DNA from: Cellulosilyticum sp.
GTDB lineage: Bacteria > Bacillota > Clostridia > Lachnospirales > Cellulosilyticaceae
DNA: 32,987 nucleotides
Direction: 5' to 3'
NCBI GenBank assembly: GCA_015058045.1
Contig: SVDC01000030.1
Coordinates: 1-32,987, forward strand
In this document: positions 1-32,987 of the stretch, one piece after another
How positions within the stretch are numbered: position 1 is the stretch's first letter
How the letters are laid out: every line of letters begins with the position of its first letter
Made by a program: the position numbers and the translations under genes
Notes under the pieces: model-generated
What the model was told of the DNA's origin: nothing
Database searches by the model: none
The model's input: the letters and a program-made list of their open reading frames with translations, nothing else

Positions 1-77
1 TCTAATTTAATACCATGATTTTTTTCTACGAGCTTCACCGCATTATCAATAACAGTTAAGGTTCTTAAGCCTAAGAA
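1..77 (-). CDS. dnaE: DNA polymerase III alpha subunit, 3' exon (partial)
   Basis: This is the continuation of dnaE downstream of the group II intron, running off the left edge of the window. On the minus strand it begins TTC TTA GGC TTA AGA ACC and reads F-L-G-L-R-T-L-T-V-I-D-N-A-V. That completes the conserved DnaE block KMDFLGLRTLT when joined to the upstream exon, which ends L-L-K-M-D. The junction lies between codons (phase 0), so splicing restores an uninterrupted frame. Only about 26 codons are visible. The rest of the palm, the fingers, the beta-clamp-binding and OB regions must lie outside the window. The exon assignment is read directly from the sequence; the claim that the gene works depends on splicing. 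Confidence 0.9.
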
Positions 78-137
78 ATAGGAATAGGTAACTTAATCCT
101 TCAGCATTACCTGTTCAGGCAAGTTTTCCCCTCCTTC

Positions 138-171
138 ACACCGTGCGTGCGACTTTCACCGCACACGGCGT
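138..171 (-). ncRNA. Group II intron domain V (catalytic hairpin)
   Basis: The minus strand folds into the standard 34-nt domain V: an 8-bp lower stem (ACGCCGTG with CACGGTGT, one G-U pair), a two-nucleotide CG bulge, a 6-bp upper stem (TGCGGT with GTCGCA) and a GAAA tetraloop. The sizes 8+6+4+6+2+8 add up to the typical length. This hairpin holds the catalytic metal site of group II ribozymes, and it fixes the 3' limit of the passenger gene region inside the intron. Confidence 0.93.
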
Positions 172-256
172 TCCATCGTAAATAGTAGTCTGCGGCGAAC
201 TACTTTCGAATAATGTCAGATAAATAATTTCTTTTACGCCTAAAGAAAGCTTTTGT

Positions 257-463
257 TTAGTTATCGTAATAATCTAAATGGTGAAAGTTATTAGGGAAGA
301 AATGTATTTCAGTTCCCGTTTTACCTTCTATTTGCTTCCATACAATGACTTTATAGGTTAAAGCAGTGTATGTTCTTGTTCCACCATCCTCATATATCTC
401 CCTTTTAGGAAATAGCAGAATGATTAAGATTATTATTACTAAGATAATGTATTTCTTTTTCAT
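257..463 (-). CDS. Small membrane-anchored passenger protein inside the intron
   Basis: This 68-residue protein is not part of the usual group II intron equipment. Residues 1-5 are basic (MKKKY). Residues 6-18 are almost purely Ile/Leu/Val, forming a signal anchor or uncleaved signal peptide. The remaining ~50 residues are a polar, aromatic-rich domain with EDGGTRTYTALTYKV and a HFFPNNFH block. I recall similar short hypothetical proteins with a DGGT..Y.ALTYK..W pattern in Clostridia, but their function is unknown to me. The start is well supported: AGAGGAGGAG lies 7 nt upstream of ATG at 463. It has its own extended -10 promoter and sits between the maturase stop (562) and domain V (171), so it travels within the intron. 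It could be recent cargo or a host gene captured by domain IV. Confidence 0.75.
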   Translation of the reverse strand: MKKKYIILVIIILIILLFPKREIYEDGGTRTYTALTYKVIVWKQIEGKTGTEIHFFPNNFHHLDYYDN

Positions 464-492
464 AGTTGTTCTCCTCCTCTAAATTATTATTG

Positions 493-535
493 TAATTGTT
501 TTAACAATTATATCATATTTAGAGTTAAAAGATTG
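493..535 (-). promoter_or_regulatory. Extended -10 promoter with overlapping palindrome for the passenger gene
   Basis: On the minus strand TGATATAAT (515-507) is a perfect extended -10 element (TGN-TATAAT). The -35 region near 530-536 is weak. A perfect 8-bp inverted repeat with a 2-nt spacer, TAATTGTT-TT-AACAATTA (493-510), overlaps the -10 and the expected start site, the usual place for a repressor site. It is about 30 nt upstream of the passenger gene start. The elements are seen in the sequence; promoter and operator activity are inferred. Confidence 0.6.
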
Positions 536-561
536 ACTCTTTAGGCTTTATTAATCATTAT

Positions 562-2421
562 TTAGTTTAATTTCTTACGGTATTTTGTAAGATTTTTCAT
601 TGTTTTTTCTGACAGACTTTCGGGCATTGAATTATTATGAATTAAATCATGACAGTATTGATGAACTGTAATAAGATTCTTTACTTTATTCATCAAGTTT
701 GTTGGTAACTTCTTATCGACATGATGGAATCTTGCTTCATTGGGTTCAACATATCCCCCACATAGTTTGCATTTTCCCTTGTCTCTATTGTATGTGTATG
801 GTCGGTTCATAAAGTATTCGAAATTATACAGTGGACTTTTGCTCATCCGTATAAATAACGCATGATTGGTAGAGTTAACCTCATCAGTTCTCACTTTTAG
901 TCCTTTCTTTCTCATCCTTTTGTTATAAAGTTCCCTTCCCTCGGGTGTATATGGTGTTTCTGCTTGTTTTTTCTGTACTGGGTTTTCCCACTTAGCAAAA
1001 TTTATGTCAGTTATACCAATATACATATCCTTGTATTTGATTGCAGGTATATGTGCTCTGTGCCCATAATGCAATCCTATAAGATTTGAAACTTCATTTG
1101 CTCTAACCCACTTACCACCATAACGTTTTAGCGATTTATATGCTGTATATTTTAATAACCATGCATATTTCCTCACTACCACACTAATTTGATCACACAT
1201 ACTATAATAATTGATAAGTCCTACTATAATCGAATTCACCCTTGTGATGTTTTGTATCAGTCTATCCATATCCTGTGTAGAAGTTTTTCTAATATAGAAT
1301 ATTTGGCGACTTAAACTTTTCATTTTTTGCTGAAATCTTTTTCTATCGGGTGATACTTTATTAACCCATACGCCATTCTTTTTGACCATTCGTATTTCAA
1401 CACCTAAGAACTTAATCGGTTTAATACGAACATTGGTTATCAATGTCTTTTCTTCTGAGAGTTCAAGCTTTAAAGTTTCTTTTAGATACCTCTTAGCTTT
1501 GTGTTTCAGTCTTTCAGCATCTTCTTGATTATCTGTTAAGATTACCCAATCATCTGCATATCTGACATAATAACAGGTTTTTAAGTTGCTATGATTTCTC
1601 ATAGCAGTTAATTCACCATCTCGTCTTGTGTGTGGCTTTCTGAGCTTTTTTCTCTCAAAATCTCCTGTCATATAATTATCGAATTTATTGAGGTAGATGT
1701 TTGCAAGTAGTGGTGAAATAATTCCACCTTGTGGTGTTCCTAATTCACTTCTACTGCATTCTTCCATAACGCCTGCTTTTAGCATTTGTTTAATAATACT
1801 CAACACTCTTTTGTCTTTAATACCAAGGTTCCATAGGCTCTTTATCATTACATTGTGGTCAATGTTATCAAAGAAACCTTTTATATCTCCCTCGACTATC
1901 CAACAACATTTTGAGGTGAAATTAATGCGTTTAATTCTTGCTACTGCCATATCAGCTGACCTCATAGGCCTGAAACCATATGAGTGTTCAAAGAACTGTC
2001 CTTCTGCTATGGGTTCTAATATATTTCTCACGCACTCTTGTATTATTCTATCGATAATTGTAGGAATTCCGAGTGGCCTTTTTTCGGACTTACCCGGTTT
2101 TGGAATCCATACTCTTCGCACCATATCAGGATTGTAGTTATAAAGTTTATTTCTTACTATCTCTATAACTTCGTCATATCCTTTTCCTAAATAATCATCT
2201 ATATCTTTATCATCAACTCCAGAAGTATGACTTCCTTTATTGCTTTTGATTTTATGAATAGAAGATATAATATTAGGTTCTGATGCAATAATTTCTAAGA
2301 TTCCTGTAAAGTTACTGTCTTTGTCATTATCATAATTATCCTTTGCCGTCAAATAAATATCTTGCAAGAGTTTATTGAGTTCTGCTTCATTAGCTGGAAC
2401 CTTGTTAAGTTTTGTCCCCAT
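562..2421 (-). CDS. ltrA: Group II intron-encoded reverse transcriptase/maturase with HNH endonuclease
   Basis: This 619-residue protein is the splicing and mobility factor of the surrounding intron. It would bind the intron RNA, help it fold and splice out of dnaE mRNA, and reverse-transcribe it during homing. The fingers/palm reverse transcriptase domain spans about residues 50-345, with KPGKSEKRPLGIP near 108, the GDI aspartate at 179, LGTPQGGIISPLLANIYL near 228 and the catalytic YADD at 288-291. The maturase X region follows at about 380-450. The C-terminus holds an HNH nuclease: CKLC (551-554), HH (566-567), CH (590-591) and a final LIHN. All key residues are present with no stop or frameshift. 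AGAGGTG lies just upstream of ATG at 2421. The gene occupies intron domain IV. The symbol follows the lactococcal prototype and is used loosely. Confidence 0.95.
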   Translation of the reverse strand: MGTKLNKVPANEAELNKLLQDIYLTAKDNYDNDKDSNFTGILEIIASEPNIISSIHKIKSNKGSHTSGVDDKDIDDYLGKGYDEVIEIVRNKLYNYNPDMVRRVWIPKPGKSEKRPLGIPTIIDRIIQECVRNILEPIAEGQFFEHSYGFRPMRSADMAVARIKRINFTSKCCWIVEGDIKGFFDNIDHNVMIKSLWNLGIKDKRVLSIIKQMLKAGVMEECSRSELGTPQGGIISPLLANIYLNKFDNYMTGDFERKKLRKPHTRRDGELTAMRNHSNLKTCYYVRYADDWVILTDNQEDAERLKHKAKRYLKETLKLELSEEKTLITNVRIKPIKFLGVEIRMVKKNGVWVNKVSPDRKRFQQKMKSLSRQIFYIRKTSTQDMDRLIQNITRVNSIIVGLINYYSMCDQISVVVRKYAWLLKYTAYKSLKRYGGKWVRANEVSNLIGLHYGHRAHIPAIKYKDMYIGITDINFAKWENPVQKKQAETPYTPEGRELYNKRMRKKGLKVRTDEVNSTNHALFIRMSKSPLYNFEYFMNRPYTYNRDKGKCKLCGGYVEPNEARFHHVDKKLPTNLMNKVKNLITVHQYCHDLIHNNSMPESLSEKTMKNLTKYRKKLN

Positions 2422-3216
2422 GGCATCACCTCTGTGATACTTTTTGGTTAGTTCGTTTCGCTCATCGGCTACCTTAACAATTAAACGTTTCTTACATTAT
2501 TCTATTTACGACTATGCCCCTTCCCTCCAACGGTTTATCGTCGTCTTCACAGGTACTACGGGCTGCTGCCCCTTGAATTCACAGGTCATTTCCTACACTG
2601 TTAGAAACATTGGCTCTTAATAGCCTTAACATTTTCTTTCAAGGTTCAATTGTTCCGTTAGTTCTATCCTTTAATTATAGTAACTTAGCTTCTGCCTTTA
2701 ACCCGCTAACCGTTCTTTCTCCCTTTAGTCGAATGGAATAAGAACTCATATCATCTATGTGATAAGAATAGTAATAACAATGGACAATATCATTACTACG
2801 ATTAGTACTCCTATAGGAGCAACCCAACTTTCGTTGAGGTCATCAAATCACGAGCCTTTCATACGGCAGTTCCCGGTGAGTAAGCATATTACTTTTTACA
2901 GGACCCCCGACCTACTTCGTCACCATACTTCTTACTTTATACTTTCTAACAGGCGGGTTCTAACCACTTTTGTACCAATTATACTTGTATATTTCATCCA
3001 TGTAGGTTTCTTTTTGGCCGTCTTTACCGAGCTTCATACACTATAGCATTAAGTCTATAATGCATGTCGGAGTATCAGGGGTTGGAATATCGACATTTAT
3101 TCCACAAGTGGGATTTCACCACTCTAATCAAACTAACAGTTAAGCAAGGTGTTTAGTTCCTTACTCCGCCAACTTGTTTCCATTTCTGGAGTATTTCGTT
3201 AGCGAACAATTCGCAC
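2422..3216 (-). ncRNA. 5' ribozyme region of the group II intron (domains I to IV start)
   Basis: This is ~800 nt without a credible gene. It starts with GTGCG at 3216 on the minus strand and leads into the maturase gene. It contains TAAGAAGT (RNA sense, complement of 2927-2934), fully complementary to exon positions -9 to -16, and GTCCATT (complement of 2779-2785), fully complementary to exon positions -1 to -7. In group II introns EBS2 lies upstream of EBS1 in domain I, as here (intron positions about 283-290 and 432-438). The remaining fold was not worked out. Confidence 0.8.
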
Positions 3217-4863
3217 GTCCATTTTAAGAAGTCCTAGCTCCTCTAATGTCGTCATTGTATATTGGGTAATGAGTAAACCATCACTAGCATTAAGTGGTAC
3301 ATATTCCATAACCGGTCTATCTGCAATAACAACTCCAGCCGCGTGCATAGAAGAGTGTCTTGGTAAACCTTCTAATTTCATGGATGTATCAATGAGATAT
3401 TGAATCCTCTCGTCTGTTTCATAAAGCTCTCTTAGTTCCCCATTCATCTCAAGTGCCTTTTTGATAGTCATCTTAAGTTCATTAGGAATCATTTTTGCAA
3501 TTTTATCTACCTCTGCATAAGGCATATTCGTTGCACGTCCTACATCACGAATAACTGCCTTCGCCGATAATGTTCCGAAGGTAATAATTTGCGATACACA
3601 ATCCGCGCCATATTTACGAATAACATAATCAATTACTTCTTGTCTTCTTTCATAACAGAAGTCAATATCGATATCAGGCATGCTGACACGTTCTGGATTA
3701 AGGAAACGTTCAAAGAGTAGTTGATATTTAATGGGATCAATATCTGTAATCTCTAATGAATAAGCTACAATACTTCCTGCGGCACTTCCTCGGCCCGGTC
3801 CTACTGGAATGCCTTCTTGTTTTGCATAACGGATAAAATCTCCTACTATAAGGAAGTAATCTACAAATCCCATCTGCGTAATAATATCTAATTCATACTC
3901 TAAACGCTCTTCTAAATCTGGTGTAATGGGATTATAGCGTTTCTTTAGCCCTTCGTAGCAAGTTTCTCTTAAAAACTGTGCAGCTGTTTTTCCATCTGGT
4001 ACATCAAAACGTGGCAACTTTAATTTATGAAACTCAAATTCCACATTACATCTTTCAGCAATGCGATTGGTATTGGCAATTGCTTCTGCGGCATATGGGA
4101 AAAGCGCTGCCATTTCATCCCCACTTTTTAGGAAAAATTGGCCACCTTCATAAATCATACGATCTGGATCTTCCATGGTTTTTCCTGTTTGAATACACAG
4201 AAGCACTTCATGAGATTCTGCATCCTCATCTTTAATATAGTGGACATCATTAGTGACAACCATTGGAATATCTAATTCACTAGCCAATCTCATGGTCATC
4301 TGATTCACTTTTTGCTGCTGATGCATGCCATGGTCTTGAAGTTCTAAAAAGAAATTCCCTTTTCCCATAATATCTTCTAATGTAAGCGCTGCTTCCTTAG
4401 CTGCTTCATATTCATCATTTAAAATACGTCTGCTCACAGGGCCAGCTAAACAAGCCCCTAATGCAATAATACCTTTATGATATTGTTTTAATATATCTAA
4501 ATCAATACGTGGCTTTCTATAAAATCCTTCAATATATGCAATTGAGACAAGTTTAATGAGATTTTGATAACCTTCATTATTTTCAGCCAATAATACAAGG
4601 TGATAGCTCCTTGCATCCATAGGCTCTTTATCAAAACGTGTACGTGCGGCTAAATAGACTTCACACCCAATTATAGGTTTAATCCCCCTATCCTTAGCTG
4701 CTTTATAAAAATCAATTGCACCATACATGGCACCATGGTCTGTAATCGCTAGATTTTTCATTCCTAGTGCTTTTGCCTGATCTAATAAATCACCTATTTT
4801 TGCCGAACCGTCTAATAAACTATACTCTGTATGCACATGTAAATGTGTAAACTCTGTAGGCAT
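3217..4863 (-). CDS. dnaE: DNA polymerase III alpha subunit, 5' exon
   Basis: This encodes the N-terminal 549 residues of the replicative polymerase DnaE. The PHP domain occupies about residues 5-210 (HLHVHTEYSLLDG at the start, TDHGAMYG near 41). The polymerase palm follows, with GPGRGSAAGS near 356 and the metal-binding PDIDIDF at 396-402, whose D397 and D399 correspond to E. coli D401 and D403. The exon ends L-L-K-M-D549, matching E. coli D555, the third catalytic aspartate. Intron sequence begins at the next base. Without splicing translation continues only five codons (VRIVR) to a stop, giving a 554-residue protein lacking the rest of the catalytic domain. An AAAGGAG motif is present but about 13 nt from the ATG, longer than ideal. 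The gene ends toward the left, where the 3' exon continues at 77. Confidence 0.95.
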
Positions 4864-7890: not shown

Positions 7891-10170
7891 ATGAGTAACA
7901 GATTAAGAAATGCCATGTTATTTTGCCTAACTACAAGCTTAATGCTTAGCAGCAGTTTAACGCTTCAAGCGGATACCACTACAGATTCACCAAGTCCTGA
8001 AAATACCGTGCCTACAGTATCTCAGTCTGCACAACTTAACCATGTTAAGAATGCCACTCATGCAGAAGGCTATATACCACCTAATCCTAAAAGTGAAACC
8101 ATCTATGTAAATCTGGATCACTATGGTCTGCCTACTGAAACACAAGTTGTTAATGGATATCGTATTGATGGTACACCTCAAATTATCGATTATGGAAATT
8201 ATACAAATGTCATTAACCTTACGAATTATACAAAACCTAAAATTGATGGGGATCAAATCAGTTGGGATTTAGAAAAGGATACGACTCATTTTTATTACCA
8301 AGGAACGTTAAAGCAGATTGATTTACCTTGGAACTTTACCATTCGCTATAAACTAAATGGTGTAGAAACAAAGGCCGAGGCATTAGCAGGTGCTTCTGGT
8401 ATGATTGAAACTATTATTGATGTAACACCTAATGAAAATGTCCCAGACTACTTAAAAAATAACTTTTTTCTTCAACTCTCTACCAGCTATGACATGGGAA
8501 AATGTTTAAGTGTCGAAGCACCAGATGGTGTAGATGTGACCTTAGGTGCAACTAAATCTCTTACTTTTATGGCTATGCCTGGTGAAGAAGCCTCCTTTCA
8601 TATCTATGTTGGTTCTAATTGCTATGAAAGTTCAGGATTTAATATAGTCATTGCACCATTAAAAATGTCTGCATTAGATACGGTGAGCGATTTAAAAGAT
8701 GCTAAAACGCGTATGGAAGACGCTTTTGATGCAGCTAGCGAAAGCCTAGATATTATTTTAGATAGCACCCATTCTATTAAAGGTGGACTGACTGAATTAA
8801 ATCAAGGTATTGCAAGTATCCAAAATAGCCTACAGGCACTCCGCCAAGATGACAATATGACAGATGAAAAAGTAGAAAAACTTTTAAGTAGTGCCACAAC
8901 ACTTAATGAAAGCTTACAAACCATCGTCCCCCATCTGGATACAGCACAAACCTTTATTACTGAAATAAATACCTCTGGCAATGCACTTGTAACCGACTTA
9001 AAGGCACTTTCACCACTCTTAGAAAATACAAAAACTTGTTTAGAAGTTTTACAAGCAGACTGCACCGAATTAAATCATTTAACAGAACAACTGACTACTC
9101 AAAATAAAAACCTTAATACTAGCTTAGATCCACTCAAAAACCAATTAACTGTACTTGCATCAGATTTAGTCTCCTTAGAAGCATCACTTCATAATCTTGG
9201 TTCTGGTCTAGATTATTCTCAAAGTTCACTCAGTCAGGCTTCTAATAGCTTATCTGACTTAAGTGCTCAGTTAGATATGCTTTCTCATTCTATTACCCCT
9301 GGTCAAATTGCTCAAGTGGGTCAATTAGTGGCTAGTAATCAAATTTCAGTTGAACAAGCACAATTATTACAAAGTTTAATGGGATCAGGTAACGATATTG
9401 ATTCATTAAACCGTGTTCTTTCTAGTACAGGATCTCTAGCTAGTGATTCTGCCAATTTAATTTCTGTACTTCGTAGAGTAAGTACGGATGTTGCAAGTCT
9501 CTCTATCGCCTTACAAAAGGTTACTACTAATATTCAAGATATATCTTCTACCTTAACGAGTCATTCAGATACTATCATCTTTACCTTAGATGATCTAAGC
9601 GCACTTCTTAAACAACTTAGTGACTCTACTGATATTATGCAATCTATGATTAACGATATAGATACTGCTCAAAACACCATTAATACGTATACACCTGAGC
9701 TTATTGGTTTCCTTCAAGATGCTAGCACACTTGTTACTCACACCAGTGAAACAACCACCGCCGCCACGGACCTTGGCACTCAAATACATCATACAATTAC
9801 CCATAACAGACAACATACTTATGATAGCATTGACCAAACGTTGTCTGCCTCTATTCATACTTTTGAGGATATCATTCATTCACTTGGAAAGACTGACGAC
9901 TTGAAAACAAATAAAGATATTATTAAAAATACCATAGATGAAGAATGGGATAAACTAGATGAAGACTTTAACTTATTAGACTATGACCCAGAAGCCCTAC
10001 CTATTTCTCTTGTTTCTGATAAAAATACAAATGTAGATAGTATTCAAATTATCTTACGTACCCCTGAAATCTCAGTGGATAAAAAAGCTGAAATAGAGGC
10101 TGAAAAAGCAGCCCAACCAGAGCTTAGCGTATGGGATCGTATTAAAAATATCTTTACAACTCTGTTCTAA
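7891..10170 (+). CDS. Secreted coiled-coil-like accessory protein of the exporter
   Basis: This 759-residue protein starts with a signal peptide (basic SNRLR, then a hydrophobic LFCLTTSLMLSSSLTL core, likely cleavage near QADTTT). Residues ~55-260 form a polar, beta-rich domain. Residues ~265-660 are rich in Ser, Leu, Asp, Gln and Thr with heptad-like spacing, suggesting long helical coils, as in the extracellular part of YhgE/Pip-like proteins. The C-terminus (SVWDRIKNIFTTLF) is a short amphipathic helix rather than a clear transmembrane anchor. AAGGAGG precedes ATG by 8 nt. It is co-transcribed with the MMPL transporter and ends at a strong terminator, so it probably acts outside the membrane as a partner or periplasm-like adaptor. 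No enzyme motif was seen; the name describes shape and context only. Confidence 0.7.
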   Translation: MSNRLRNAMLFCLTTSLMLSSSLTLQADTTTDSPSPENTVPTVSQSAQLNHVKNATHAEGYIPPNPKSETIYVNLDHYGLPTETQVVNGYRIDGTPQIIDYGNYTNVINLTNYTKPKIDGDQISWDLEKDTTHFYYQGTLKQIDLPWNFTIRYKLNGVETKAEALAGASGMIETIIDVTPNENVPDYLKNNFFLQLSTSYDMGKCLSVEAPDGVDVTLGATKSLTFMAMPGEEASFHIYVGSNCYESSGFNIVIAPLKMSALDTVSDLKDAKTRMEDAFDAASESLDIILDSTHSIKGGLTELNQGIASIQNSLQALRQDDNMTDEKVEKLLSSATTLNESLQTIVPHLDTAQTFITEINTSGNALVTDLKALSPLLENTKTCLEVLQADCTELNHLTEQLTTQNKNLNTSLDPLKNQLTVLASDLVSLEASLHNLGSGLDYSQSSLSQASNSLSDLSAQLDMLSHSITPGQIAQVGQLVASNQISVEQAQLLQSLMGSGNDIDSLNRVLSSTGSLASDSANLISVLRRVSTDVASLSIALQKVTTNIQDISSTLTSHSDTIIFTLDDLSALLKQLSDSTDIMQSMINDIDTAQNTINTYTPELIGFLQDASTLVTHTSETTTAATDLGTQIHHTITHNRQHTYDSIDQTLSASIHTFEDIIHSLGKTDDLKTNKDIIKNTIDEEWDKLDEDFNLLDYDPEALPISLVSDKNTNVDSIQIILRTPEISVDKKAEIEAEKAAQPELSVWDRIKNIFTTLF

Positions 10171-10182
10171 TTTAAATCTCAT

Positions 10183-10228
10183 AAAAAATGGCTAAAAACA
10201 AGCAAATACTTGTTTTTAGCCATTTTTT
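10183..10228. terminator. Bidirectional intrinsic terminator
   Basis: A perfect 20-bp stem with a 6-nt loop. The arms begin AAAAAATGGC and end AGCCATTTTTT, so both strands finish in a T-run. It lies 12 nt after the secreted protein gene and between two convergent genes (the aminotransferase ends at 10313). Confidence 0.92.
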
Positions 10229-16324: not shown

Positions 16325-16661
16325 ATAAAAAAAGCCCCGCCCCTTTATATAAAAAGGGACGAAGCTATACTCTCCGCGATACCACCCTGATTCTTAGTTC
16401 TATATGTAGACGATACGCCTAATAGATCTAAGCACTTCATTAGCTCTAACGTTGCTACCGTTATCTCCTACCTAATCTACTCATAGATTTTCTATTCATA
16501 GACCTTTATTTATAGATTACCTCTATAAACTTTTTCAAAGATAAAGCTCCAATGTGAAATTCAAAAATAAATAGTGCCTAAAGGTACTTCCAGCCGATGA
16601 TACCTTCTCTCTGATGGATATTTACTTTTTACTGTGCATTTTCATAGCTTTTATGTTATAT
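16325..16661 (-). ncRNA. Phenylalanine T-box leader
   Basis: This is the untranslated leader of pheST, read on the minus strand. It senses uncharged tRNA-Phe and allows read-through. The T-box sequence AGGGTGGTATCGCGG is at 16388-16374. The AGAGAGAAGG stem-I motif is near 16610. In the specifier region the codon TTC (16558-16556), followed by A, matches a phenylalanine specifier. The leader ends with a G+C-rich terminator (16365-16327), which the T-box/antiterminator pairing would replace when tRNA is uncharged. The sequence motifs are seen directly; the mechanism is that of the known T-box family. Confidence 0.93.
16327..16365 (-). terminator. T-box regulatory terminator
   Basis: A 13-bp stem (GCTTCGTCCCTTT with AAAGGGGCGGGGC, several G-U pairs) followed by seven Ts. 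It lies between the T-box motif and the pheS ribosome-binding site, as expected for the attenuator of a transcriptional T-box. Confidence 0.9.
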
Positions 16662-21963: not shown

Positions 21964-23217
21964 ATGAATGAACAAAAATCTTTGATGAATTTATTATTAC
22001 TTTCTACCGCTGCTCTTTCTGGTTACAAAAAGGGAGCGACCAAGCAATATCAACCTAATCCATACAATAGAAGCATGCGTAATGATTCCCCTCAAAATAC
22101 ACAAACTACTCCTTCTTCAAATAATACAACCATGCCATCTAATATGATGAATAATACATCTGCTAATACCTCTACTTCTAATACTAACACCATGCCTCAG
22201 ATGCCTTACATGATTAATACAGATGCCCCCAACGCTCAAGATGCTGCCTATGCTCAGGGTACTAATACTTATAGCAATGGCGCTTACAATAATGGCAGCA
22301 ACTACAATAATAATACTAACTATAACAATGGTAACAACTACAACAATAACAATAACTACAACAATGGTAACAACTACAATAATAACAGCAACTACAACAA
22401 TGGCAGTATGCCTAATAATATGACTAATATGATGCAAACTGCTACTAATGCGCAAATGGGCGTTTCTCCAAGTGCAACTGCTGCTGCTCAAAGTGACTCT
22501 ACTTACCTTCCTGCCTTGTTGGGTGCAATTTATGCAGCAGATGAAGCTATTGGCCTCAATGCTGATTCTACAGGTCCATTTACATTACCACCACTTGAAT
22601 ATGACTACGATGCCTTAGAACCTTATATTAGTGAGGAAACCCTTCGTATACATCATGGTACTTTACATCAAAACTATGTTAATAACCTTAATGCAGCTTT
22701 AGCACGCTATCCAGAATTCTATACCTATACCATCCCCGAAATGCTACTGTTCCCAGACCGCTTACCTAGCGACATTCAGGCTCAAGTCATTCATAATGCA
22801 GGTGGTGTTTACAATCATACCTTAGTTTGGCAGCTCATTGGACCACCTAATAATACACGCCCTACTGGTGAGTTTGCTGATGCGATCAATAGACAATTTG
22901 GCTCTTTTGAAAATCTACAACGTATTTTAATAGAAGCTGGTCGAAGTGTAGAAGGTACTGGTTATGCTTGGCTTACTTTAAACCCTTATGGTAGGCTCAT
23001 TGTTGTAACCACAGAAGAACAACTCACCCCAATTCCACTTCGTACGATTCCAATGCTTCCTATTGATGTTTGGGAACACGCTTATTTTCTCGATTATGCT
23101 GAAGATCGTATGGAACATATCAATCAATTATTTAACTTGATTGACTGGAACCGCGTAGGTGATCGTTATAACGCAGCAATGAATGTTTTAGATAATGTAA
23201 GCGACCTTAATAGCTAG
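21964..23217 (+). CDS. Mn-type superoxide dismutase with Asn/Tyr-rich N-terminal extension
   Basis: This 417-residue protein has a full Fe/Mn superoxide dismutase domain at about residues 205-405, which would convert superoxide to oxygen and hydrogen peroxide. The four metal ligands are present: H230, H285, D368 and H372 (in IHHGTLHQNYVNNLN, VYNHTLVW and DVWEHAY). Gly281 and Gln353 occupy the positions that separate manganese (Gly77/Gln146) from iron enzymes. The N-terminal 200 residues are not enzymatic: 25-100 are rich in Asn, Thr, Met and Pro. Residues ~101-150 are Asn/Tyr/Gly repeats of NYNNG type. There is no signal peptide. Normal SODs are about 200 residues. Low-complexity tails of this kind occur in spore coat proteins, and a coat or exosporium role is my inference. 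AGAGGA precedes ATG. Confidence 0.88.
   Translation: MNEQKSLMNLLLLSTAALSGYKKGATKQYQPNPYNRSMRNDSPQNTQTTPSSNNTTMPSNMMNNTSANTSTSNTNTMPQMPYMINTDAPNAQDAAYAQGTNTYSNGAYNNGSNYNNNTNYNNGNNYNNNNNYNNGNNYNNNSNYNNGSMPNNMTNMMQTATNAQMGVSPSATAAAQSDSTYLPALLGAIYAADEAIGLNADSTGPFTLPPLEYDYDALEPYISEETLRIHHGTLHQNYVNNLNAALARYPEFYTYTIPEMLLFPDRLPSDIQAQVIHNAGGVYNHTLVWQLIGPPNNTRPTGEFADAINRQFGSFENLQRILIEAGRSVEGTGYAWLTLNPYGRLIVVTTEEQLTPIPLRTIPMLPIDVWEHAYFLDYAEDRMEHINQLFNLIDWNRVGDRYNAAMNVLDNVSDLNS
22273..22413 (+). repeat. In-frame AAC/AAT/TAC codon repeat (Asn/Tyr-rich tract)
   Basis: Tandem, imperfect units of AACTACAA(C/T)AATGG(T/C) type encode NYNNG and NYNNN repeats in the SOD N-terminus. Codon third bases vary between units, which argues for selection on the protein. 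It is a likely site of length variation. Confidence 0.85.
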
Positions 23218-32821: not shown

Positions 32822-32987
32822 TTTCTTACCTCCAAATAAAAAATATTTCTCACTTATTATGTGAGTCCTATAAAATATTATACCTGACTGTTTTATAAAC
32901 AACGCAAACATTAGAACTGCCTTATAAACTCAAAATATTATAGAATCATCTCATAGTCTAGATAATCCCCAGAAAATTTGGAAGTAC

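Follow-up and report, generated by a model that had tools for sequence, protein, structure and literature searches.

The polymerase gene dnaE of Cellulosilyticum sp. is interrupted by a group II intron of 3,139 nt, which lies at one end of a 32,987-nucleotide stretch of DNA (scaffold C74 from its first base to base 32,987; contig SVDC01000030.1 of assembly GCA_015058045.1), referred to below in its entirety as the window. The intron separates the GAC and TTC codons of the sequence LLKMD/FLGLR, and sequence comparison indicates that it is one member of an intron lineage locked to this single site. The initial annotation had described one odd insertion; the insertion proved to be real, and it belongs to a site-specific lineage. 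We consider it highly probable that the element is a group II intron which splices, is mobile and homes specifically to a single dnaE site. This reading draws on the anatomy of the insertion, the occupancy of the same site in other hosts, the match and covariation of the guide and its target and the conflict between the intron and host gene trees, from which we infer splicing, retrohoming and a dependence of the cell on the intron.

The two exons can be fused in frame, giving a stop-free dnaE frame of 1,156 codons, which bears out the insertion point and the join proposed in the initial annotation. The remainder of the gene is found on contig C125 (L010, 1–1824), where it runs uninterrupted up to a normal stop, so that the 3′ exon is not broken a second time further left. 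The frame of the unspliced transcript ends five codons beyond the junction, as had been predicted, and an intact DnaE is obtainable only through splicing, which presumably takes place. A DnaE intein was also considered and was rejected because the frame passing through the insert meets this stop five codons in. Same-genus relatives carry an empty site (ATGGACTTY), a comparison that the initial annotation had called for. The element shows the features of a group II intron: domains 5 and 6 at its 3′ end, whose fold was equalled by none of 200 shuffled sequences, domains 1–4, the termini GTGCG at 5′ and CTAT at 3′, and pairing between exon-binding site 1 (EBS1) and intron-binding site 1 (IBS1). 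The end consensus of group II introns is 5′ GUGYG and 3′ AY. The intron-encoded protein (IEP) matched the Pfam family RVT_1 and scored 321.4 bits against TIGR04416 (cut-off 300), its best relative of solved structure was LtrA (5g2x, E 2.1e-58), and we take its C-terminal Cys/His motif to be of the HNH kind. The coordinates of these features are collected in Table 1.

Table 1. Features of the interrupted dnaE gene and its intron (window coordinates).
Feature	Coordinates	Strand	Basis
dnaE 5′ exon, codons 1–549, ending LLKMD (GAC)	4863..3217	-	PHP and DNA_pol3_alpha Pfam matches; joined frame
Group II intron, 3,139 nt, GTGCGAAT...ATTCCTAT	78..3216	-	RF00029 and RF02004; boundaries agree with intron-free relatives and other carriers
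dnaE 3′ exon, first 77 nt (FLGLR...)	1..77	-	identical to the start of C125, where dnaE continues to nt 1824
IEP, 619 aa, with reverse transcriptase (YADD) and maturase regions and a Cys/His region at its C-terminus	562..2421	-	RVT_1, TIGR04416, LtrA 5g2x, motifs
Domains 5 and 6	78..173	-	RF00029, 61 bits, match ending exactly at 78; fold z = -4.75
Domains 1–4, part	2896..3144	-	RF02004, 56 bits, cut-off 34.5
EBS1 loop GTCCATT inside covarying hairpin	2779..2785	-	14/14 introns pair with their own exon, G-U allowed
IBS1 AATGGAC, containing the Met-Asp codons of the active site	3217..3223	-	EBS1 pairing
Small open reading frame located after the IEP stop and before domain 5, encoding 68 aa with an N-terminus that is hydrophobic by eye	257..463	-	without Pfam or NCBIfam match
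Stop codon reached by the unspliced frame	3199..3201	-	reading frame past the junction

The distribution of the IEP was determined by scanning 84,980 species genomes with exact short patterns; the best 80 of 125 relatives were retrieved, yielding 78 loci. Thirteen of these (L015–L026 and L087) encode an IEP at least 68% identical to that of the window in the best segment, and all 13 are located at this dnaE site as judged by at least one exon. The next IEPs are at most 49% identical, and none of the remaining 65 loci showed a dnaE match within the retrieved stretch. All 11 readable 5′ exons (L015–L025) end in KMD, L023 after correction of its boundary, while the stretch of L022 stops within the intron, and for L026 and L087 the 5′ half is missing. 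On the 3′ side, 11 of the 12 readable sequences continue directly with FLGL, the exception being L021. The hosts are labelled Lachnospiraceae (including Faecalimonas), Oscillospiraceae, Eubacterium, Eubacteriales and Clostridia, besides one metagenome-assembled genome of Bacilli and one plain ‘bacterium’. The IEPs are full length in 12/12 cases (618–627 aa), and the YADD and Cys/His motifs are retained in all 12 aligned sequences. Occurrence within larger groups was nevertheless patchy: the IEP was detected in one of the 24 genomes of the window's family at E 1e-150, and a DNA query made of domains 1–3 matched 4/392 genomes of the order (the window's own, G010, G011 and G305, the last with a stretch also present in L016) and 1/391 genomes of the class, namely the window's. 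In the DNA queries, scoring covered the top two candidates of each genome, and the order query missed one further carrier, G013. These prevalence figures are lower bounds, since diverged introns escape both the DNA and the IEP queries, the pattern scan was exact and the best 80 of 125 relatives were followed. A 97-aa junction query matched 380/392 genomes of the order and was unusable for the prevalence of split genes, for which the DNA queries were used instead.

These occurrences also bear on the idea that the exon–intron join is an assembly artefact, a false connection made at a contig end. The window does end 77 nt beyond the intron with the partner exon on another contig, but the same join was found within long contigs of other species, for example in L015 (a 3.1-Mb contig) and L016, and in the single-contig genome G011, which makes an artefact extremely improbable.

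The contig break itself deserves attention. The overlap of C74 and C125 is exactly 77 nt long and coincides exactly with the opening stretch of the 3′ exon. At the right end of the window there is likewise an overlap of 77 nt, spanning a gap of 100 N; since this length recurs at both contig ends examined (two), it looks like the assembler's k, and contig-end overlaps of length k are a habit of SPAdes. Immediately before the shared 77 nt, the intron has a T and exon 1 a C. A branch point lying exactly at the splice site is expected from a mixture with an intron-free dnaE, although no matching contig break was seen at the 5′ splice site, which counts against such a mixture of alleles. Whether intron-free dnaE alleles coexist with intron-bearing ones in the sequenced material is, on balance, about an even call.

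Within the window's family the dnaE junction was matched in 21 of the 24 genomes, and it was uninterrupted in 17. It is interrupted at the site in the window's own genome, G010 and G011, while G013 displays the 3′ side only, on a contig that begins inside such an intron. The introns of G010 and G011 are 790 nt long, agree at 783 of 790 positions and contain the Rfam domains 1–4 and 5–6 but no space for an IEP. Searched with TIGR04416 at E 1e-20, G010 (80% complete) gave no match, and G011 (95% complete) gave one, which carries two in-frame stops followed by 525 open codons and belongs to another intron. No IEP of the lineage was found anywhere in the genome of G013 (76% complete). Taken at sequence level, some lineages appear to have lost the IEP and to persist as bare ribozymes in dnaE.

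The basis of the site specificity was sought in the pairing of intron and exon. The sequence GTCCAT occupies the same aligned position of domain 1 in all 14 introns having this region (12 with and two without an IEP), and in each of them it pairs with the ATGGAC or ATGGAT (Met-Asp codons) of its own exon. The pairing can be extended by one base, GTCCATT with AATGGAY (GATGGAT in L020), and still holds in 14/14 introns if G-U is allowed. When aligned columns were scanned against exon offsets, 14/14 was reached only by this register and its one-nucleotide shift, the next best reaching 7/14. The loop is constant while the stem of the surrounding hairpin changes by compensating pairs. The 13 distinct rows give 104 cells, of which 89.4% are paired and 19 are doubly changed, with a covariation score of 0.518; each value was matched by 0/500 shuffles, whereas slid controls gave 28–72% paired cells and scores of at most 0.309. 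As a control, the first 800 nt of six sister introns located in other genes were examined, and in five of them they contain a sequence exactly complementary to the six bases that end the intron's own 5′ exon; the sixth, the recA intron L085, has none in that range. The sequence shows directly that the G of EBS1 stands opposite the wobble base of the Asp codon, where it can pair with either C or U. Because Met has a single codon and this G accepts both bases, the target offers little synonymous variation, and the guide G may have been selected for tolerance of the Asp codon.

The Asp that precedes the intron aligns with residue 618 of the Taq alpha subunit (2hpi), counted by hand along the alignment; we take Taq D618 and Escherichia coli D555 to be the third catalytic Asp. 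Conservation was tested by entropy on 36 rows of intron-free dnaE from 34 genomes (G014 and G015 twice), all from the window's order and best-scoring rows only. The 7-nt window composed of the last 6 nt of exon 1 and 1 nt of exon 2 ranked 6th of 2,436 dnaE windows, and longer windows ranked 15/2,426 (9 nt), 7/2,413 (12 nt), 52/2,401 (15 nt) and 112/2,389 (18 nt). The guide-length target is therefore among the best-conserved DNA of dnaE, yet it is not the single best, and the description of the site as the ‘most constrained point’ of the polymerase was nearly right. The Met codon of IBS1 (Met 548) is ATG in 34 of the 36 rows; the exceptions, GTC and ATT, occur in G008 (L111) and G012 (L108), two genomes that are intron-free at the site and come from the two genera that also contain carriers. 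These codons may be resistance alleles or drift.

Comparison of the IEPs with their host genes pointed to movement between hosts. In all 66 pairs formed by 12 carriers, amino acid identity was higher in the IEP than in the DnaE 5′ exon. The window and the other carriers share 77–86% in the IEP and 56–66% in the DnaE 5′ exon (68% and 41%, respectively, with L023), and the L022/L024 pair reaches 95% in the IEP against 60% in DnaE. At four-fold sites the IEP was more alike in 61/66 pairs. The G+C content of the IEPs is 0.32–0.41 compared with 0.25–0.59 for DnaE, and it does not track that of dnaE. In approximately unbiased (AU) tests, the DnaE 5′ exon rejected four of five IEP clades (p-AU 0.0002, 0.0022, 0.0067 and 0.035). 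The histories of IEP and DnaE thus conflict in 4/5 tests, and on this ground we conclude that the intron moved horizontally. The vector was searched for among 72,556 plasmid records (14 matches at E 1e-100), 50,697 phage records (five matches at E 1e-50) and, by pattern search, viral contigs (a single IEP, 33% identity); all plasmid and phage matches were below 60% identity, and no vector was found at these settings.

Several observations weigh against site-specific homing as described here. For the guide, further pair types in the EBS1 stem were ordinary (126/500 shuffles), double-change pairs were reached by 7/500 shuffles, one of the eight stem pairs (columns 9, 24) is broken in 6/13 rows, and the stem was drawn from the same sequences that were used for its test. 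An EBS2–IBS2 pairing was scanned for and not found, the best candidate being fully paired in 4/14 introns. At the 3′ side of L021 (4429–4494), approximately 66 additional nt precede FLGLR; by eye they partly resemble a second domain 6 and they are unexplained. As regards movement, the relation at four-fold sites was reversed or tied in 5/66 pairs (L015/L023, L017/L023, L018/L022, L021/L023 and L022/L025), the fifth AU-tested clade, uniting the window and L018, was not rejected (p 0.249), and the clades were picked after the IEP identities were known. The identities of IEP and DnaE correlate (Spearman 0.68, 66 pairs), and the DnaE tree is weakly supported, with one very long branch (L023) and one starred branch only. 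Since the identities correlate and the tree is weak with such a long branch, the sequences suggest that vertical descent is likely to contribute in part.

The extreme form of this alternative is an ancient vertical intron, with a single insertion into the dnaE of some early Bacillota member and subsequent loss from the majority of lineages. The correlation and the compatible grouping of the window with L018 are what it would produce; the four rejected clades are not, and the rarity of domain 1–3 matches in the order and the class (lower-bound counts) would require very many losses. Moreover, the intron 3′ ends of G013 and G011 are alike at 92/95 nt while their dnaE exons are 69% identical across 856 nt. 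We regard purely vertical inheritance as quite unlikely and retain homing into the dnaE site as the explanation.

The consequences for the host depend on its polymerases. In genome-wide profile searches, PF07733 and PF17657 each detected dnaE (split across C74 and C125) and one further gene, located on C115, and no second dnaE. The C115 gene is an uninterrupted frame of 1,528 aa and was identified as PolC by TIGR01405 (1610.6 bits, cut-off 1043.45) and NF001688 (1751.5, cut-off 873). The genome check for a second dnaE or polC thus left dnaE single but revealed an intact polC, and the claim that every replication-competent polymerase of the cell needs splicing fails. The polymerase activity of DnaE is reported to be essential in Bacillus subtilis (PMC5627055), and by analogy it is likely to be essential in the window's host as well. 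It could also be imagined that the insertion is dead, dnaE being inactivated and all work done by PolC, whose gene is intact. In that case it would be surprising that both exons are open through the normal stop, that no other dnaE was found, that the same layout with open exons recurs in other hosts and that the IEP and EBS1 are conserved; the essentiality reported for B. subtilis argues in the same direction, and a dead insertion appears very unlikely.

Another possibility is that splicing serves the host as a switch, retention of the intron giving a truncated product and tuning the ratio of DnaE to PolC. The stop five codons past the junction, the intact PolC and the persistence of the intron without IEP in G010 and G011 would suit such a role. 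Against it, 17 of the 21 junction-matched genomes of the family have an uninterrupted dnaE, and the spread looks selfish in the AU tests, so a benefit of this kind seems improbable.

The region between the IEP and domain 5 appears to function as a cargo slot. Five of the 12 aligned IEP-bearing introns (the window, L015, L016, L024 and L025) have there an open reading frame (ORF) with a hydrophobic or lipoprotein-like start; by eye the ORFs are mutually dissimilar, and the L016 ORF has no ATG close to where it begins. The beginning of such an ORF is present in L022, none was seen in L017 and L018, and the slot comprises at most 58 nt in L019, L020, L021 and L023 (ORFs not read). The ORF of L015 matched DUF3139 just above the cut-off. 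Relatives of the 68-aa protein of the window were found in six other genomes of the 392, and none of these six loci contained group II intron RNA at the threshold used. As its relatives stand apart from intron RNA, the 68-aa ORF was rejected as an intron-specific gene and looks like a picked-up small gene. To judge from these sequences, small genes unrelated to one another seem to have entered the slot.

In the mechanism we propose, EBS1 (GTCCATT) would recognize RATGGAY, which holds the Met-Asp codons of the polymerase active site, and the encoded maturase/reverse transcriptase would aid splicing to produce an intact DnaE mRNA. Reverse splicing followed by reverse transcription (retrohoming) could then carry the intron into intron-free dnaE alleles of new hosts. 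Because the site is catalytic, mutating it would presumably be costly to a host and an imprecise deletion of the intron would not be tolerated, and where the IEP is lost a bare ribozyme would remain in dnaE. A joint picture of a wobble-tuned retroelement hunting an active site, with splicing-dependent hosts, coexisting intron-free alleles, IEP-less forms lacking an intact maturase and swapped membrane or lipoprotein cargo, is tentative as a whole. The system opens two questions to tests with cultured bacteria: what keeps a ribozyme efficient when it lies in an essential gene, and whether a host can become dependent on the intron maturase. Such dependence is an often proposed step toward spliceosomal introns. 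Faecalimonas umbilicata DSM 103426 (L016) is a named strain that has the lineage intron in dnaE together with a second group II intron of 1,320 nt in the same gene (8900–10219), located inside the Ser codon of FNKSH, with an IEP reduced to a reverse transcriptase remnant.

Other group II introns were encountered as well. L123 (G012) has a different one at approximately residue 1040–1049, near the 3′ end of dnaE, with no dnaE match beyond it in the retrieved stretch, and the window's genome contains a second, different intron with an intact IEP frame of 645 open codons (G000:C135:117128–118312). Seven of the 65 loci outside the lineage were tried as sister introns, with targets assigned by Pfam on short joined flanks; L076 was dropped since its 5′ end could not be chosen. 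The sisters (IEP 40–47% identical) lie in radC (L028, L038), recA (L085), ssb (L034) and a Rad52-like gene (L029), and for L027 no host gene family was assigned by this method. The six examined lean toward DNA replication and repair genes. Elsewhere in the window, a T-box leader (16352–16654, minus strand) precedes a gene whose sequence resembles pheS, and an ORF (21964–23217, plus strand) has a long Asn/Tyr-rich repeat stretch followed by a domain that by eye looks like superoxide dismutase.

Among known systems, the recA intron of Geobacillus kaustophilus (Chee and Takami 2005, as cited in PMC3522654) is an active group II intron that likewise occupies an essential gene of DNA metabolism, but its gene and target differ from those of the dnaE intron. 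A recA-inserted relative in our material, L085 of Lysinibacillus composti, has an IEP 46% identical to that of the window; it lies beyond the dnaE lineage in the IEP tree, in which it had been set as the outgroup. Ll.LtrB shares the reverse transcriptase–maturase IEP (LtrA, 5g2x), whereas it resides in the relaxase gene of a conjugative plasmid and not in a housekeeping gene (PMC6003770). The C.te.I1 intron of Clostridium tetani lacks an IEP in a genome said to be without any IEP-related gene, the only case then known according to PMC4424553 (section 11). By analogy, G011 would possibly resemble C.te.I1 if its IEP is dead; the intron of G011, however, is inside dnaE, has IEP-bearing sisters at the same site and is accompanied by one broken IEP match in the genome.

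No group II intron in dnaE was found in the open-licence literature searched, although Zbase, which this search did not cover, could list one, and the available portions of PMC8919778 and PMC12350094 name no dnaE insertion. Inteins have been reported in dnaE (PMC4853749 and PMC12702839). Inteins and homing group I introns resemble the present lineage as parasites that choose conserved, hard-to-change sites (PMC2814812), but they use protein splicing and group I chemistry, respectively. Bacterial group II introns, in contrast, are said to avoid housekeeping genes (PMC3522654 and PMC4424553), and a 2009 study detected no preference of theirs for conserved protein sites (combined p = 0.49; PMC2814812). 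The dnaE lineage departs from both patterns and appears to use the same strategy as inteins and homing group I introns; its parts are the standard, known ones, its choice of dnaE as target is unusual and consistent, and it has IEP-less descendants in an essential gene.

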